Positions 40,645 to 48,960 of a stretch of 64,000 nucleotides of DNA are shown piece after piece (position 1 is the first letter of the stretch; each line of letters begins with the position of its first letter). Made by a program: the position numbers and the translations under genes. Source of the DNA: Halostella limicola. GTDB lineage: Archaea > Halobacteriota > Halobacteria > Halobacteriales > Natronoarchaeaceae. Under the pieces are notes generated by a model. The model saw nothing but the letters and a program-made list of their open reading frames with translations, made no database searches and was not told the DNA's origin. The stretch spans positions 1,054,001 through 1,118,000 of the forward strand of contig NZ_RCDI01000001.1 in assembly GCF_003675875.1 (NCBI RefSeq), written 5' to 3'.

Positions 40645-41658
40645 ATGCGAATCGCCATTCTCGCGCACGAGAAGTTCCCCGACCGCGCCAAGACGGCGCT
40701 CGGCGTCCTGCGGTACGGCGACTACGACGTGGCCGCGGTGCTCGACCGCGACGCCGCCGGCACGCGGGTGTCGGACCACGTCCCGGACGTGCAGGACGCG
40801 CCGGTCGTCGCCTCGATGGACGACGTCGGCGAGGTCGACGCCCTGTTGATCGGCATCGCGCCCATCGGCGGCGAGTTCGAGGAGTCCTGGCGGCCGGACG
40901 TTCGAGCGGCGCTCGAACGCGGCTGCGACGTGGTCTCCGGGCTCCACTACTTCCTCGCGGAGGACGAGGAGTTCGCCCGCCTGGCGGACGAGAACGGCTG
41001 TGAACTTCAGGACGTCCGCAAGCCGCCGGCGGACCTGAGCGTGGCCGACGGCGTCGCCCGCGACGTCGACGCGGAGGTGATCCTCACCGTCGGCACCGAC
41101 TGCTCGGTCGGCAAGATGACGGCGACGATGGAGCTGGCGCAGGCCGCGCGGGAGAGGGGCCACGACGCCGCCGTGATCCCGACGGGCCAGACCGGCATCA
41201 TGATCGAGGGGTGGGGGAACCCCATCGACCGCGTCATCAGCGACTTCACGGCCGGCGCGGTCGAGGAGATGATAGTCGAGAAGGGCGACGACCACGACTA
41301 CCTGTTCGTCGAGGGGCAGGGGAGCATCGTCCACCCCGCGTACTCTGCCGTCACCTGCGGCATCCTCCACGGCTCGATGCCCGACAAGATGGTGCTGTGT
41401 CACGTCGCCGGCCGCGAGGCCATCCACGGTTACGAGTCGTTCGCTCTGCCCGACCTCCCCGCGTACGTCGACCTCTACGAGTCGCTCGCCGGAACCGTCC
41501 ACGAGAGCGAGGTCGTCGCCGGCGCGCTGAACACGATGACGGTCGACGACGACGCGGCCGCCGCCGAGGCGGTCGACGCGTACGCCGACGCGCTCGGCCT
41601 CCCGGCGTCCGACGTGATCCGGTTCGACGAGGACGCGGTGCTGGAGGCGATACTGTGA
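40645..41658 (+). CDS. dgcN: DgcN-type D-glutamate N-acetyltransferase (DUF1611)
   Basis: A 337-residue DUF1611 protein. A Rossmann-like N-terminal domain (1-135) precedes a P-loop-type domain with GTDCSVGKMTATMEL near 148-162 and VEGQGSIVHPAYSAVT near 222-237. The family member DgcN has been described as an N-acetyltransferase acting on D-glutamate, working with DgcA, in marine proteobacteria and haloarchaea (recalled knowledge). The GTG of dgcA overlaps its stop by four bases, supporting that pairing. Confidence 0.87.
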   Translation: MRIAILAHEKFPDRAKTALGVLRYGDYDVAAVLDRDAAGTRVSDHVPDVQDAPVVASMDDVGEVDALLIGIAPIGGEFEESWRPDVRAALERGCDVVSGLHYFLAEDEEFARLADENGCELQDVRKPPADLSVADGVARDVDAEVILTVGTDCSVGKMTATMELAQAARERGHDAAVIPTGQTGIMIEGWGNPIDRVISDFTAGAVEEMIVEKGDDHDYLFVEGQGSIVHPAYSAVTCGILHGSMPDKMVLCHVAGREAIHGYESFALPDLPAYVDLYESLAGTVHESEVVAGALNTMTVDDDAAAAEAVDAYADALGLPASDVIRFDEDAVLEAIL

Positions 41659-42708: not shown

Positions 42709-42993
42709 TCACCGGTCGCCGTCCGCTCGCTGGACGACGACCTCGTCGCCGGAGGCGGTCACCAGAAAGCCGACGTGCTCGAACTGCACGGCCGCCGACC
42801 CCGGTCCGCCGACGACCGCGTCGAGGGCCTCGGGGTCGACGCTGTCGTACAGCGGCGGGAGGTCGATCTTCTCGCGAGCGGCCGCGTCGGCGAGCGCCGA
42901 GAGGACGGCGTCGGTCGGAGTCGGGTGGTCCGCCGGGTCCCGCGTCCACGTCCGGCCGTCCGAACTGCGTGACGAAAACGGTGCTTCGGTCAT
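42709..42993 (-). CDS. HalOD1 output domain protein
   Basis: A 94-residue stand-alone HalOD1 protein. The helix PTDAVLSALADAAAREKI, then LPPLYDSVDPEALDAVVG and the closing strands FEHVGFLVTASGDEVVV match the domain. Its function is unknown. It lies just downstream of the Bat-type regulator gene on the same strand and could share a pathway. A 14-base palindrome lies 25-38 bases before its ATG. Confidence 0.82.
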   Translation of the reverse strand: MTEAPFSSRSSDGRTWTRDPADHPTPTDAVLSALADAAAREKIDLPPLYDSVDPEALDAVVGGPGSAAVQFEHVGFLVTASGDEVVVQRADGDR

Positions 42994-43017
42994 CGTACTT
43001 CCGTGCGTCGGTCGGGC

Positions 43018-43031
43018 GGTCGTCGACGACC
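43018..43031. promoter_or_regulatory. 14-base perfect palindrome before the HalOD1 gene
   Basis: GGTCGTCGACGACC is fully self-complementary and sits at -25 to -38 from the minus-strand ATG at 42993, where the TATA region would be. It may be an operator. GC-rich composition and the common CGTCGAC word make chance occurrence a real alternative. Confidence 0.35.
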
Positions 43032-43138
43032 CGTCGTCCGTCGACCGTCGAGCCGTCGTCTACGAGGTGTCGTTCGGTCCATCGTGTCGTCCACGGCCGT
43101 ATTGGACAGTCACGTTGGTAGGCCCTGTCTGTGAGTAT

Positions 43139-43807
43139 TCACGCTCCTTTAACTGATCCCTCCGGCCCATCCGCGAGCGAGTACCGGACGAGGTTCGCGT
43201 GGCCCCGCCGAAGCCGGGAGGACAGCGCGTTCGACGAGATGCCGAGATCGTCGGCCACGTCCGCGAGCGTCACCGCGCGCGGTACGTCGAAGTAGCCCGC
43301 CTCCAGCGCGGCGACCAGCGCCTCTCGCTGGTCCTCGGTCACGGGGTCCTCTTCGTACTCTGAGGGGTCGTCCGGGTAGAAGAGCCGGTCGACGTCGAAG
43401 GAGAGGTGCGACTCCTCGCAGTGCTCGTTGAACGTCGAGAGCGCGTCCTCGTCCGGAAACAGCATCCGCACGTGCCAGCCGCCGTTCGCCTCGGCGTTCA
43501 GGACCGTCCCGAGCGACCCGCGGAGCGCGAACAGCACGCCGTCTTCCGGCGCGTGCCAGTCCACGCGGTAGAGGCGCTCGCGCTCGCTCGTCTCCAGCAC
43601 GCGGACGTTCCCCGCCGTGTCGTCCTCTCGAAGCGCCTCGTCGAACGCGTCGAGGTCGTCGCACGCCACCCAGAAGTACGGGGTCACGCGCTCCTCGCTC
43701 GTCGCGGCGACCCGTTCTATCTCCACCGTAGCGTCCGGAACCGCGGCCAGCGCGTGCGCCAGCACGAACTCCTCCGGCGGCACGGTGATGTCGGCGATGA
43801 TGCTCAT
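43139..43807 (-). CDS. Bat-type helix-turn-helix regulator
   Basis: A 222-residue haloarchaeal regulator. Residues 1-155 form the GAF/HTH-associated sensor region common to bacterio-opsin-activator-like proteins (VLETSERERLYRVDW, GGWHVRMLFPDEDAL). The HTH_10 domain occupies 160-215 (VTEDQREALVAALEAGYFDV, then GISSNALSSRLRRGHANLV). The target genes are unknown; the HalOD1 gene follows on the same strand after 145 bases. Confidence 0.88.
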   Translation of the reverse strand: MSIIADITVPPEEFVLAHALAAVPDATVEIERVAATSEERVTPYFWVACDDLDAFDEALREDDTAGNVRVLETSERERLYRVDWHAPEDGVLFALRGSLGTVLNAEANGGWHVRMLFPDEDALSTFNEHCEESHLSFDVDRLFYPDDPSEYEEDPVTEDQREALVAALEAGYFDVPRAVTLADVADDLGISSNALSSRLRRGHANLVRYSLADGPEGSVKGA

Positions 43808-43840: not shown

Positions 43841-45658
43841 CTAACTGCCGGGGATTTTCGGTCCGTCCCCGAACAGCGTCGGCGTCCGTGGCCGCGGCGC
43901 CGGGAAGCCGTCGACCGCCTCGCGGACCGCCGCTTCGAGTTCGCCGACCGTCATCGCCGATTCGCGCCCGGTCGCGCGCTCCGCGACCGGCAGGCTCTCC
44001 CGCGCCAGTTCACGGTCGCCGACGACCGCCCGGTACGGCGCGCGGTCGGCGTCGGCACGGGCGATGCGCTCCCCGACGGTCGCCGCCCGGTCGTCCACGT
44101 CGGCGCGGACGCCCGCGTCGCGGAGGCGCTCCGCGACCGCCGAACAGCGGTCGACGTGGTCCTCGCCGACCGGGATCAGCCGGACCTGCGTCGGCGCGAT
44201 CCAGGTCGGCAGTCGGGGCGGGTCGCGGTCGTCAGCGGCGGCCAGCAGGGCCCCGATCGACTCCGTCAGGCTCCCCACCGGCGAGCAGTGGACGAGCGCC
44301 GGCGAGCGTTCCCCGTCGCCGTCCGCGTAGGTCACGCCGAAGCGCTCGGCGGTCTCGTCGTCGAGCGCGACCGTCCCGAGGGTGACGGTCGGTCCGTCGC
44401 CCGCGGTCGCCACGGCGTCGAGCTTCGCGACCCAGTCTCCCCGGGGGTCGGGGAGGACTTCGAGGAGCAAGGGCGCGCCGAGCGCTTCGGGGATCGTTTC
44501 GATCCACGCCGCGTTCGCGTCGCGGAACGCCCGCGTCGCCCGGAGGACGTACTCGCAGTCCAGACCGAGGGCCGCCGTCCCGTCCCGGACCAGCATCGCG
44601 TGGCGCTCGAAGGCCTCCAGTGCGGCCGGCCCGTCGGCGACGGCGGTGCGAATCTCCGGTAGGGTCGCCTCGTCAGGCCCGCCACCGGTCGCCCGCCGGA
44701 ACGTCTGTCCGTCGCGCTCGTAGAGGCTGACGGGCAGGTCGTCGGCGTCCGCGATCGCCTCGCGCAGGAGCGAGCAGTGGACGGCGCAGGCCGTGGCGCG
44801 GAGGCGCCGCCGCCGGTCGCCCGCCTCGGCCCGGTACCGGTCCCCGCCTCCGACTCCCTCCCGGACGCGAACGTCCCGAACGCCGGGGTCGACGAGGTGC
44901 GGCGTCTCGACGGGCGCTGCGCCGACGTCGGCGGCGAGGTCGTCGACGAGCGCCCGCAAGCAGTCCCTGACCACCGTCCCCCGCGGCGTCCAGCGCGGGT
45001 CGTCGGTCGGGCCGTCGGAGGACGCGAGTCCCCAGTCGGCGAGGCGGTCCGCGGCGGCGCGCCACCGTCGACCGTCGCCGCCGGCGTCCCCGCGGTCCAC
45101 CTCTTCGTCGCTCGCCGCCTCCCGCTCGACGACGGCCCGGAGCCCCTCGTCGAGGTCCGGGTTCGCTGCCTCCGGGTCCCGGCGTTCGCCGTCGACGGTC
45201 AGGAGCGTCCAGTCGCTCGGCGGCCGCGAGCCGCTCTCGCGTGCCGGGTGCACGCGCCGGGCGAACGCCGACAGCGGATGACCCTTGCAGGAGACGTCGA
45301 ACGCCAGGTGCCACCCGGCCGGCGCGCGGAGCACCTCGCGGTCGGCGAGGGCCGCCTCGACGCGTTCGAGCACCGACGCCGTCGTCTCCGCGTCCGCCGC
45401 GTCGTCGCTCAGGACCGGGCTCGGGTAGAGCGCGACCCGGTCGGCGTTGAGGCGGTCGGCGGCGGCCCGGACCTCGTCCACCGCGCCGTCGGCCGCCGCG
45501 TCGGGCGCGCCCCCGTCCTCAGCCTCGACGGCGACGAACGCGGCGACGCAGTCGTCCAGCTCGCCGGAGAGGGGAACGTCCCGCTCCGCGCTCGCCTCGT
45601 CGGCGGTCGTGGTGGCCTCGAACGCCGCGCGGTCCGCGTGGACGAACAGCAGTCGCAT
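43841..45658 (-). CDS. Degenerate threonyl-tRNA synthetase-like protein
   Basis: A 605-residue protein with the plan of archaeal ThrRS. The N-terminal editing domain (1-140) begins MRLLFVHADRAAFEA and keeps SCKGHPL with K125, but the usual histidine in the YPxAHLS motif is V82 (YPSPVLSDD). The catalytic part (200-475) is badly altered: motif 2 reads TFRRATGGG and motif 3 HCSPVGSLTES, where H-R-A-x-x-G-S-x-E-R is normal. The anticodon-binding domain (485-590) is well kept (LPTWIAPTQVRLIPV). It is unlikely to charge tRNA; tRNA binding or trans-editing is possible. True ThrRS is not in this window. Confidence 0.82.
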   Translation of the reverse strand: MRLLFVHADRAAFEATTTADEASAERDVPLSGELDDCVAAFVAVEAEDGGAPDAAADGAVDEVRAAADRLNADRVALYPSPVLSDDAADAETTASVLERVEAALADREVLRAPAGWHLAFDVSCKGHPLSAFARRVHPARESGSRPPSDWTLLTVDGERRDPEAANPDLDEGLRAVVEREAASDEEVDRGDAGGDGRRWRAAADRLADWGLASSDGPTDDPRWTPRGTVVRDCLRALVDDLAADVGAAPVETPHLVDPGVRDVRVREGVGGGDRYRAEAGDRRRRLRATACAVHCSLLREAIADADDLPVSLYERDGQTFRRATGGGPDEATLPEIRTAVADGPAALEAFERHAMLVRDGTAALGLDCEYVLRATRAFRDANAAWIETIPEALGAPLLLEVLPDPRGDWVAKLDAVATAGDGPTVTLGTVALDDETAERFGVTYADGDGERSPALVHCSPVGSLTESIGALLAAADDRDPPRLPTWIAPTQVRLIPVGEDHVDRCSAVAERLRDAGVRADVDDRAATVGERIARADADRAPYRAVVGDRELARESLPVAERATGRESAMTVGELEAAVREAVDGFPAPRPRTPTLFGDGPKIPGS

Positions 45659-45736: not shown

Positions 45737-46789
45737 CTACTCCTCGCCGGCGGACGAAGTCTGCTCCCGGTCGTCGCCGGACGACCGCCGCGTCTCCCGC
45801 AGGACGAACGGTCCGACAGAGAGCGTCCGCTTCGTCAGCGTCAGCATCCGGAGCAGGAACGCGAGCAGGACGGCGATCGGAAACAGCGCCAGCGTGAACG
45901 CCAGCGCGACGGCGAGGTAGCTGTTCTCGATGTGGAGCGTCGTCCCGGCGACTTCCGTGGGGTCGAAGATAAGAAGCATGTACGCCGACAGCGCCAGCGC
46001 CGGCATCGCGCTGTACAGCATCACCTGCGAGAGGTTGACGAACTCCCACTGGAGGTACTTCGACTTGACGTACTCCCGCGCCGGGCCGAGCAACTGCAGC
46101 CCGTCGAGCAGCTCGTCGAACGCCCGCTCCGTCTCGACGGAGAACGCGTCGCGGTTCGCCGTCCGGAGGCGCTGGGCGGCGTCCATCTTCCAGGCGTAGT
46201 TGTAGTTCAACACCGGCAGGAGGACCTCGAAGGAGCCGAACTCGGCTCCCTCTAGGTCGCCGATGACCTTCTCGCCGTGGTCGACCACCTCCGTGACGTA
46301 CGTCGAGACGGCGTCGCCCGCGCCGTCCCGCTCGGCGGCGTCGGCTACCGCTCTTGCGCGGTCGCTGACCGTCTCGATCACCGCCACGAGGAAGAGTCCC
46401 GGCTCCGCCGGACTCACGCCCACCGACGAGAGGTCCTCCAGGTCGCGGCGGAAGGTCAGCTGCTCGTCCATCCGTTCTCGCACGTCCCCGATGGTGCCGA
46501 GCTCCTGCGAGAGGACGATCTGCGAGACCGTCAACACGAATGCGACCGCCGTGACGACGGCGATGATCGTCGAACTGAACAGCGACCCGATCGCGTTCGT
46601 CCCGATGAACCTCTCCATCGAACTCGTCCCGATGACCGCCAGACCGACGAGGAGGAGAAAGGTTCCGAGGAGGATCAGCGCGACGAGGGCCCACCGGTTT
46701 CCGGTGATCAGAAACCAGAACTGCACCCGGCTCTCGTCGGAGCGCTCACGCATCGTGTCCGCCGGCGGCGAGAGGTCGCTGTCGTCCAT
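45737..46789 (-). CDS. Four-span membrane protein, paralogue A
   Basis: A 350-residue protein. Two spans lie near the N-terminus (about 30-52 and 68-92), a soluble domain of about 160 residues follows, and two spans near 265-325. Shared words with the divergent gene at 47097 are LNYNYAWK, LGPAREYVKSKY and KRTLSVGPFVLRE, and both have EPGLF/EPAAF before the soluble domain. The acidic tail is SSGDDREQTSSAGEE. No known family or motif. It probably forms a module with the DUF4177-like gene and its paralogue. Confidence 0.78.
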   Translation of the reverse strand: MDDSDLSPPADTMRERSDESRVQFWFLITGNRWALVALILLGTFLLLVGLAVIGTSSMERFIGTNAIGSLFSSTIIAVVTAVAFVLTVSQIVLSQELGTIGDVRERMDEQLTFRRDLEDLSSVGVSPAEPGLFLVAVIETVSDRARAVADAAERDGAGDAVSTYVTEVVDHGEKVIGDLEGAEFGSFEVLLPVLNYNYAWKMDAAQRLRTANRDAFSVETERAFDELLDGLQLLGPAREYVKSKYLQWEFVNLSQVMLYSAMPALALSAYMLLIFDPTEVAGTTLHIENSYLAVALAFTLALFPIAVLLAFLLRMLTLTKRTLSVGPFVLRETRRSSGDDREQTSSAGEE

Positions 46790-46820
46790 CCTCCGCGCTA
46801 CGACGGACGCGCGGAAAGGC

Positions 46821-46997
46821 CTAGGTCTCCCGCCGGAAGACGAACAGGATCGTCGACTCGCCGAGGGTGATCGTCTCGTCCAGTTCCCAGCCGTCGGCCG
46901 CCGCCTCGTTGAGCACGTCCTCGAACCGCCTGCTGTCGAGTTCGGTCGGGTAGATCGACACGTCGTGGACGCGGTACTCGTAGCGCTGGTCTCCCAT
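46821..46997 (-). CDS. DUF4177-like small protein
   Basis: A 58-residue protein, MGDQRYEYRVHDV through LNEAAADGWELDETI to ILFVFRRET. The YEY...LNxxxxxGWEL...FxR pattern is that of DUF4177, a small alpha/beta domain of unknown role. It starts at ATG 46997, 99 bases from the divergent paralogue B gene, and its stop is 31 bases before the start of paralogue A, so the two minus-strand genes are likely one transcript. Confidence 0.75.
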   Translation of the reverse strand: MGDQRYEYRVHDVSIYPTELDSRRFEDVLNEAAADGWELDETITLGESTILFVFRRET

Positions 46998-47096
46998 GAC
47001 CGAGCGGTCAACGGGTGCGGTGATAACCGTCGGGTCCGACCGACGACTGCCGTCGTCCCGCCGCGACTTTTCCGTCTGGTCGTCGTACCGTCGGCC

Positions 47097-48119
47097 ATGG
47101 CAGACGAGGGCAGTCCGGAGGACACGATGCGAGGGCGCGGCATCGACAGCCGCCTCCGTCTCTGGCTCCTCCTCGGCGCGAACCGCTGGGTGATCGTTGC
47201 GGCGCTCGCGGTCGTGCTGTTCGCCACGCTCGTCGTCCTCGGCACGCTCGACGCCACGCCGCTGCGGTCGACGATGCGGGGCAGCGACCCGACCGAAACC
47301 GTCTTCCAGGCGCTCATCACGTCGATCATCACCGGCGTGACGCTCGTCGTCACGATCAACCAGCTCGTTCTCTCGGCGGAGCTCGGCCCGCTCGGCGACC
47401 AGCGGGCGCGGATGTCGAACTCGATGGAGTTCCGCGCGGACACGGAGGACATGTTCGGCGAAGTGAGCCCGACGGAACCCGCCGCCTTTCTCCAGGCGCT
47501 CGTCGAGACGTCGGCCGACCGTGCCGCCGACCTCCGAGACAGCGTCGCCGGCGCGGACGACCGGGCGCTGCGCGACGACGTCGAGGAGTACACCGAGGGG
47601 CTCATCGACCACGCCCGGACGGTCTCCGACCAGTTAGAGGACGCCGAGTTCGGGTCCTACGACGTGATCCAGGCGGCGCTGAACTACAACTACAGCTGGA
47701 AGATATACAGGGCGCGGCAGCTCCGCGACGACTACGGCGACGGGCACTCCGCCGAGCGGCGCGAGGCGTTCGACGAACTCGTGCGGGTGCTGACGTTCTT
47801 CGGTCCCGCGAGAGAGCACATCAAGACGCTGTACTTCCGGTGGGAGCTGGTCGACCTCTCGCGGGCGATGATCTACACGTCGCTCCCGGCGCTCGGCGCG
47901 GCCATCGCCGCGCTCCTGTTTCTGGACGCGCCGTCGTTCCCCGGGGCGACGCTCGGGCTGGACAACGTCCTCCTGATCGTCTGTCTCGGCGTCACGGCGT
48001 CCGTCCTCCCGTTTCTCGTGCTCATCTCGTACATTCTCAGGATCGCGACCATCGCGAAGCGGACGCTGTCGGTCGGCCCGTTCATCCTCCGGGAGTCGGA
48101 GCGCTCGGGCGGCGACTGA
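47097..48119 (+). CDS. Four-span membrane protein, paralogue B
   Basis: A 340-residue protein with the same plan as paralogue A: spans near 28-52, 68-92, 262-285 and 292-320, with the soluble domain between. Shared words include LNYNYSWK, FGPAREHIKTLY and KRTLSVGPFILRE. N-terminus MADEGSPEDTMRGRG is polar. The function is unknown; the shape is that of a small channel or sensor. Its stop lies one base from the stop of pspA on the other strand. Confidence 0.78.
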   Translation: MADEGSPEDTMRGRGIDSRLRLWLLLGANRWVIVAALAVVLFATLVVLGTLDATPLRSTMRGSDPTETVFQALITSIITGVTLVVTINQLVLSAELGPLGDQRARMSNSMEFRADTEDMFGEVSPTEPAAFLQALVETSADRAADLRDSVAGADDRALRDDVEEYTEGLIDHARTVSDQLEDAEFGSYDVIQAALNYNYSWKIYRARQLRDDYGDGHSAERREAFDELVRVLTFFGPAREHIKTLYFRWELVDLSRAMIYTSLPALGAAIAALLFLDAPSFPGATLGLDNVLLIVCLGVTASVLPFLVLISYILRIATIAKRTLSVGPFILRESERSGGD

Positions 48120-48120
48120 G

Positions 48121-48960
48121 CTACGTCTCCTCGCTTTTGATGTCCTCTAGCTCCTCCTCGACCTCGGACTCGTCGACGTTCACGTCGACCTCCTCGCCGG
48201 TGTCGCTCTCGAACTCGACTTCCTCCTCGCCCGGCGGCTCCGCCTCCTCTTCGGCCGCGGTCTCCTTGCCCATCTCCGATTTCAGCGTGTCAAGCTCGGC
48301 GTCGACCTCGCCCTTCGAGCGGACCTCCTCCAGCTCGCGGTCGAGCTGGTCCTTGTCGGACATGGCGTCCTCGAACACGCCGGTCTCCTGGAGCTCGTCC
48401 ATGGCGGCGGCGCGCGCCTCCATGTCGTCGGTGCGCTCCTCCGCGCGCTCGATGGCGCGGCCGACGTCCTCCATCTCGTCGCCGGCCCCGGTCATCGCCT
48501 CGGAGACGCGAGCGCTCGCCTCGGCGGCCTCGTGGCGGGCCTTGATCGTCTCTTTCCGGGTGCGGAACTCCTCGATGCGCTGCTGGAGCGTCTCTTTCTT
48601 CTCGACGAGGTTGTCCTGCGTGTTCTGGAGGTCGGCGATCTGGGCCTCCAGCTCCTCGATCTGAGTCATCTTCGCCTTCTTCTTCTCCAGCGCGCGCCGC
48701 GCGAGGTCGTCGCGGTCCTGCCGGACGGCCTCCCGCGCCTGTTCGTTGTGCTTGTCGACGTTCTCCTCGAGCCGGCGCTTCTGCATCTCCAGGCGCTTCT
48801 TCTGGGTGGTGAGATCGGCGATCCCACGTTTCACGTCCTGTAGCTCGTCGCGCATCTGCTCGTAGGAATAGTCCAACGTCTCCGTTGGGTCTTCGGCCCG
48901 GTTGAGCAAGGCGTTGACCTTCGAGCGAATGACGTAAGAGGCCCGCGAGAGTATTCCCAT
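48121..48960 (-). CDS. pspA: PspA/IM30 family membrane-stress protein
   Basis: A 279-residue PspA/IM30 (ESCRT-III-like) protein. It starts MGILSRASYVIRSKVNALLN, an amphipathic helix that binds membranes, followed by long coiled-coil helices (30-190) with ERAEERTDDMEAR. The last 70 residues form an acidic tail (EEEVEFESDTGEEVDV) longer than in bacteria. PspA proteins stabilise damaged membranes. The start codon is 27 bases from a TATA element that may also serve the divergent hydrolase. Confidence 0.93.
   Translation of the reverse strand: MGILSRASYVIRSKVNALLNRAEDPTETLDYSYEQMRDELQDVKRGIADLTTQKKRLEMQKRRLEENVDKHNEQAREAVRQDRDDLARRALEKKKAKMTQIEELEAQIADLQNTQDNLVEKKETLQQRIEEFRTRKETIKARHEAAEASARVSEAMTGAGDEMEDVGRAIERAEERTDDMEARAAAMDELQETGVFEDAMSDKDQLDRELEEVRSKGEVDAELDTLKSEMGKETAAEEEAEPPGEEEVEFESDTGEEVDVNVDESEVEEELEDIKSEET

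Follow-up and report, generated by a model that had tools for sequence, protein, structure and literature searches.

The gene at 43841 to 45658, on the minus strand of the window (the whole 64,000-nucleotide stretch of Halostella limicola DNA that was analysed), encodes a protein of 605 residues that is probably the ancestral archaeal-type threonyl-tRNA synthetase (ThrRS-R) of haloarchaea, displaced by an acquired bacterial-type enzyme (ThrRS-C), deprived of aminoacylation and, very probably, of editing, and kept as a non-catalytic protein. We infer that it still recognises the anticodon of tRNA(Thr) and that such binding is its selected function. An earlier sequence-only reading had placed the gene at exactly these coordinates, with no strand given, and had seen in it a tRNA-binding protein recruited to a new job. 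Recruitment is the reading favoured by the data presented here, which comprise an intact ThrRS-C, lost catalytic residues and an anticodon domain preferentially retained under purifying selection, with tRNA binding as the presumed activity. That earlier observation as a whole can be upheld in part: the gene and its losses are real, while one lysine was misassigned and the strand was missing.

The domains of the protein, all encoded on the minus strand, have fared differently. The N-terminal archaeal ThrRS editing domain (residues 1-135; 45254 to 45658) is recognised by PF08915 with 99.1 bits, its editing residues being lost, and the anticodon-binding domain (residues 491-580; 43919 to 44188) is retained, with 76.7 bits to PF03129. 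Between them lies a degenerate class II synthetase core (residues 211-485; 44204 to 45028) that scores 18.7, below the Pfam cut-off of 29.3. Over its full length the protein reaches 377.6 bits with the NCBIfam model for archaeal threonine--tRNA ligase (PRK03991), short of the cut-off of 484, and intact ThrRS-R proteins score 816 (G011), 820 (G046) and 666 bits (G123). A counterpart of the gene is found in all nine genomes of the family, and in a scan of named genomes the sole true relative was the metagenome-assembled genome Halobacteriales archaeon QS_9_68_17, with 71% identity, the other match being one bacterial ThrRS. The open frame alone is weak evidence, because antisense frames at the locus are also open, for 418-492 amino acids.

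The sequence-only reading had made its case depend on a separate, intact thrS, and one is present. The other true ThrRS of the window genome (G000) is a ThrRS-C at C2:810152-812101, which is complete from TGS through the second additional domain (tRNA_SAD) and the catalytic core to the anticodon domain and scores 675.7 with the thrS model against a cut-off of 383.65. It has its own editing motifs, HSAAH (HxxxH) and CAGPH (CxxxH), as well as motif 2, motif 3 and the presumed zinc ligands, and the motifs for editing, catalysis and presumed zinc binding are present in the ThrRS-C of all nine family members.

The situation of the window genome is repeated across its order. The archaeal editing domain was found in 62 of 392 genomes and is absent from the remaining 330, so the function can be dispensed with in most haloarchaea. 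Both ThrRS types occur together in 43 of these 62 genomes: in 20, ThrRS-R is apparently intact (one of these copies, that of G175, runs into a contig end, which leaves its core beyond judgement), and in 23 it is degenerate (including the G061 copy, likewise ended by a contig end), a split that we set from the editing-domain score and the state of the motifs. The other 19 have an intact ThrRS-R alone; genomes were counted as lacking ThrRS-C where the best match, at 1e-41 to 1e-47, was read as ThrRS-R itself. The degenerate copies fall into four families: f1 has nine (one in each of its nine genomes), f17 has six, and f4 and f7 have four each. The residue losses described below are more than chance, because they recur in 23 of the 62 genes with an editing domain among 392 genomes. 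A separate pattern was seen in genus g27 of f17 (for example, G037, G089 and G107), where each genome has two ThrRS-C matches and no archaeal editing domain; these matches are apparently two genes, or gene fragments, for a bacterial-type ThrRS.

As the functional reference we took the 19 ThrRS-R proteins whose genomes lack ThrRS-C; it has 228 invariant columns and a numbering that equals that of P. abyssi at H83, Y120, K121 and E134. Alignment to this reference reveals how far the core has been dismantled. The roles of the motif arginines and zinc ligands are those we take from the ThrRS literature, placed by alignment. In the motif 3 remnant (residues 455-475; 44234 to 44296, minus strand) the catalytic arginine R474 is replaced by Glu466, and in the motif 2 remnant (residues 318-338; 44645 to 44707, minus strand) the loop has been shortened, with E325 replaced by Ala323, R335 deleted and R337 replaced by Asp329. 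The earlier view that both motifs had lost their conserved residues therefore holds for R474 and the motif 2 loop, but not for the first motif 2 arginine, R323, which is still there as Arg321. One of the three presumed zinc ligands is gone (H345 to Arg337), and Cys291 and His457 remain. Of the 23 degenerate copies, 21 lack R323 and 17 lack R474, the truncated G061 copy being scored as lost for the core. In 22 complete degenerate proteins the zinc site reads Cys-His-His in five and His-His-His in two, a weak lead towards a threonine sensor in some copies; the window protein is without one ligand. As judged from these residues, a complete active site is absent from the window protein.

These losses make it extremely unlikely that the protein is a conditional or moonlighting synthetase that still charges tRNA(Thr) under some condition. 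The motif 3 arginine and full motif 2 that characterise an archaeal threonine--tRNA ligase are missing, and each of the 22 complete degenerate proteins has lost at least one of the five catalytic residues that were compared. What speaks for continued charging is the retention of Arg321 and of two presumed zinc ligands in the window protein. There is also a precedent in Anabaena, which, according to PMC9437257, has a second ThrRS for low zinc.

The editing site has suffered in a similar way. Relative to the reference, the window protein has V82 for H83, H117 for Y120, L118 for K121 and A131 for E134, and the adenine-stacking Phe117 has become Ala114; the Leu118 codon lies at 45305 to 45307 on the minus strand. 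The missing motif histidine had been noticed before, and V82 does sit at His83 of P. abyssi. However, the lysine then thought to be retained, K125, belongs to the SCKGHP motif (K128 in the reference) and is not the editing-site lysine, which is K121 in Pyrococcus. Across the degenerate ThrRS-R proteins K121 is lost in 23 of 23 and F117 in 20 of 22, while H130 and P131 of the same domain are kept in all 23. According to PMC4491819, mutation of H83 abolishes activity in P. abyssi but leaves moderate activity in A. pernix, whereas K121M and its equivalents are severely compromised with binding still strong. The loss of the histidine is thus not decisive alone, and that of the lysine weighs more. 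F117, as PMC3845328 describes it, stacks on the adenine. From its residues, the window protein has very probably lost editing activity. Threonine also replaces K121 in G068 (L102) and G123 (L090), two ThrRS-R proteins with otherwise intact catalytic motifs from genomes with ThrRS-C, which possibly represent early steps of decay.

As examples of a possible new job, the sequence-only reading named trans-editing, regulation of thrS and sequestration of tRNA. In trans-editing the protein would be a factor like the crenarchaeal ThrRS-ed, which takes serine off tRNA(Thr), and its specificity might be altered. In the order of its parts the protein does match ThrRS-ed, with an editing domain followed by a reduced core and an anticodon domain. 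Its editing domain is under constraint (dN/dS of 0.054 between G000 and G002), and, according to PMC4491819 and PMC3845328, the fold is thought to catalyse through main-chain atoms and the 2'-OH of the tRNA. The proposal is nevertheless unsupported and we consider it very unlikely, because the editing lysine and, in most degenerate copies, the adenine-stacking Phe are gone and ThrRS-C has editing motifs of its own, HxxxH and CxxxH, in all nine family members. The ThrRS-ed model PRK14938 also gives only 68-157 bits, below its cut-off of 362, for all seven degenerate proteins scanned (157.3 bits for the window protein), although intact ThrRS-R falls below this cut-off too.

An AlphaFold2 model of the window protein, built from 59 of the 62 sequences, has a mean pLDDT of 84.8, and its residues 201-587, which cover the core and the anticodon domain, match a solved ThrRS with a Z score of 30.5 and an rmsd of 3.0 A over 376 residues at 19% identity, so the overall fold is predicted to persist. 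The structure matches listed barely extend to the N-terminal domain. Confidence in the motif 2 region is below a pLDDT of 50, and this cannot be taken as evidence of loss, because a control model of an intact enzyme, itself poor (mean 68.9), is also low there; the pocket is not readable from the model, and it is the sequence that speaks for an incomplete active site.

At the level of conserved residues, the anticodon domain is the best retained part. Of the invariant reference residues, the window protein keeps 81% in this domain, against 66% in the editing domain and 49% in the core, in line with the earlier description of the anticodon domain as intact. In functional ThrRS-R the order is the opposite: in all 19 proteins the core exceeds the anticodon domain in conservation (means of 0.79 and 0.66). 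Against the same functional set, the anticodon domain is ahead of the core in all 22 degenerate proteins (0.44 versus 0.30), rows that are not independent and that we count as about 15 lineages. Nine anticodon-domain residues are common to ThrRS-R and ThrRS-C and absent from ProRS, as compared in 16 of 17 ThrRS-C sequences and in the ProRS sequences of six of eight loci; these are kept in 18-22 of the 22 degenerate proteins. For instance, R501 and R527 are kept in all 22, and the window protein has the ThrRS-type residues R493, R518, W486 and Y542.

This retention also bears on the idea that the protein is conserved for binding a partner protein or DNA instead of tRNA, as in the polymerase gamma accessory subunit, a non-catalytic class II relative. 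Synthetase-like accessory subunits are known, the structural matches include POLG2 (at a Z score of about 25) and the editing domain has been retained as well. Even so, the best retained part consists of ThrRS-specific anticodon-domain residues and no neighbour gene is conserved across families, which makes such a role quite unlikely.

Degenerate ThrRS-R is under purifying selection. The dN/dS of degenerate pairs is 0.114 (G000-G002), 0.255 (G005-G007), 0.109 (G001-G003) and 0.095 (G006-G008), the saturated pair G000-G004 having been left out. By likelihood these values are far from 1, with a 2dlnL of 227 for G000-G002, 60 for G005-G007 (dS 0.26) and large differences for the other two pairs. 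ThrRS-C has a dN/dS of 0.012-0.047 in the identical genome pairs, and ThrRS-R evolves much faster. Among the domains tested in G000-G002, dN/dS peaks in the anticodon domain (0.237) and is smallest in the editing domain, a poor fit with the anticodon domain as the sole selected part. Since the editing domain is constrained as well, the protein may do more than bind tRNA through its anticodon domain.

These data must be weighed against an alternative in which ThrRS-R is a slowly decaying relic with no present function, its frame still open since GC-rich genomes have few stop codons. The very fast divergence of ThrRS-R would suit a relic, as would the open antisense frames and the lack of the editing domain in most of the order. 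There is also an in-frame TAA at codon 286 of thrS-R in G002 (L104, L004, L033), the closest relative, a metagenome-assembled genome with 71% identity, although this is a single observation, from the same record twice. On the other hand, the other 21 of the 22 complete degenerate copies have no internal stop, the gene is kept in all nine family members, decay is uneven across the domains and dN/dS is well below 1 even in the recent pair G005-G007. We therefore regard a functionless relic as unlikely and continue with the displaced, non-catalytic tRNA binder.

The genomic neighbourhood indicates where the degenerate genes came from. A common set of neighbours, variably complete, surrounds intact and degenerate genes alike: guaA, pyrG, a hydrolase gene, pspA, thrS-R, dgcA and dgcN, the neighbours being named provisionally from their sequences. 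In the window, the presumed pspA-like gene lies at 48121 to 48960 on the minus strand, and 12 degenerate and 15 intact loci have it within 4.5 kb of thrS-R; the presumed dgcN-like gene (DUF1611) lies at 40645 to 41658 on the plus strand, followed by a dgcA-like gene, and is within 4.5 kb in 13 degenerate and 14 intact loci. In f17, a downstream gene (of cluster C8) is common to intact and dead copies. The shared markers were not seen within the stretch examined at several loci, such as those of G024, G135, G365 and the intact f7 copies. With a neighbourhood common to both classes, the dead copies look like displaced ancestral enzymes that decayed in place, so the term paralogue, used at the outset for a protein correctly seen as ThrRS-derived, is imprecise in suggesting a duplicate.

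Other features of the locus are more local. Directly downstream of thrS-R, at 43139 to 43807 on the minus strand, is a bat-type HTH_10 regulator (Pfam HTH_10 and BAT) that is possibly co-transcribed with it. The regulator is immediately downstream in G000, G001 and G003, 1.7 kb off in G004 and not at the locus in G002, and it is not a neighbour of thrS-R in the other two genera of the family. Together with a HalOD1-domain gene downstream on the same strand it occupies 42709-43807, and all but one of the genus's five genomes have both genes. If the protein regulates thrS or sequesters tRNA, it would do so with no regulatory partner conserved beside its gene: in a search across families for a conserved operon or regulatory partner, no gene cluster proved to be an immediate neighbour shared by degenerate copies from more than one family. 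At about 45737-48119 lie two related predicted membrane-protein genes in opposite orientation, with similar N- and C-terminal segments, and related genes are found at the equivalent place in other families. In G029, G050 and G115 of f6 (L119, L131 and L120) and in G365 (L094), the ThrRS-C gene adjoins thrS-R on the opposite strand, at about 0.2 kb in the f6 trio and at 0.9 kb in G365. This looks like insertion of the newcomer next to the enzyme being replaced.

Displacement followed by decay in place has probably occurred more than once. In a full tree of 60 of the 62 sequences, from which G061 and G175 were left out as both are ended by contig ends, the 22 degenerate rows all fall on one side of a branch (100/100), and the tool flagged that long branches meet and that many rows have an unusual composition. 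In five runs, 7 of the 22 degenerate rows were placed singly or in pairs among 31 of the 38 intact rows, and the placements differed: G123 of f17 was the neighbour of G000/G002, G135 and G075, two f7 rows were the neighbours of G004, and G281/G358 had no clear branch. Because of these differences, the trees neither show nor exclude a single origin. The case for multiple origins, which we think probable, is built on the gene neighbourhood and on the intact and dead copies within genus g19, with vertical descent assumed.

In the mechanism that we propose, a bacterial-type ThrRS-C would be acquired and take over threonine charging from ThrRS-R. The old enzyme would then decay in place, losing the activities of the core and the editing domain and retaining the anticodon-binding domain, and would hold tRNA(Thr) without charging or deacylating it, most likely as a chaperone, buffer or charging sensor, while the editing-like domain may serve as a structural or dimerisation scaffold. 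A more general idea can be put forward tentatively, and we hold it to be possible rather than probable: after each ThrRS swap the old enzyme can independently become a dead tRNA(Thr) binder, a recurrent sensor or chaperone that reads the anticodon and neither charges nor edits. Genus g19 appears to keep graded intermediates of this kind (G068 and G123, with the editing lysine lost and catalytic motifs present).

Within a single order, the displacement of an essential enzyme is visible at many stages: an intact enzyme by itself, an intact enzyme beside the newcomer, one without its editing lysine, one without its core and, lastly, loss of the gene. Should the dead form bind tRNA(Thr), displaced synthetases would be reused and not simply discarded, and synthetase-like regulators could be studied in a tractable archaeal model. 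Searches of open-licence papers turned up no account of dead ThrRS-R proteins in haloarchaea. ThrRS-R and ThrRS-C have been described as homeoalleles, with no single genome said to carry both (Andam and Gogarten 2011, PMC3191353). The same two types are found here, and that statement must now be qualified, as 43 of the 62 ThrRS-R genomes have both, 23 of them with a dead ThrRS-R.

Several known systems resemble the window protein in part. Crenarchaeal ThrRS-ed (ApThrRS-2), a Ser-tRNA(Thr) hydrolase, likewise combines archaeal editing and anticodon domains, both above cut-off in the window protein, with a reduced core and a separate ThrRS. However, ThrRS-ed keeps its editing lysine (K116 in A. 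pernix, PMC4491819), which the window protein does not have, and serves a ThrRS without an editing domain (PMC7373986), whereas the partner here has tRNA_SAD, HSAAH and CAGPH. Animal ThrRS-L is also an extra ThrRS-like protein, proposed to recycle tRNA(Thr) (PMC9437257), but it retains aminoacylation activity, while the window ThrRS-R has lost catalytic residues. The closest match, and the nearest functional precedents, are haloarchaeal LeuRS2 and Sulfolobus LeuRS-I, second synthetase-like archaeal proteins in which, according to the review PMC9437257, aminoacylation is strongly reduced or absent and tRNA affinity is retained. They belong to another synthetase family and class, their tRNA binding was measured where that of ThrRS-R is deduced, and ThrRS-R differs in being a displaced ancestral enzyme with much of its core lost; what the window protein shares with them is the loss of catalytic residues beside a functional synthetase.
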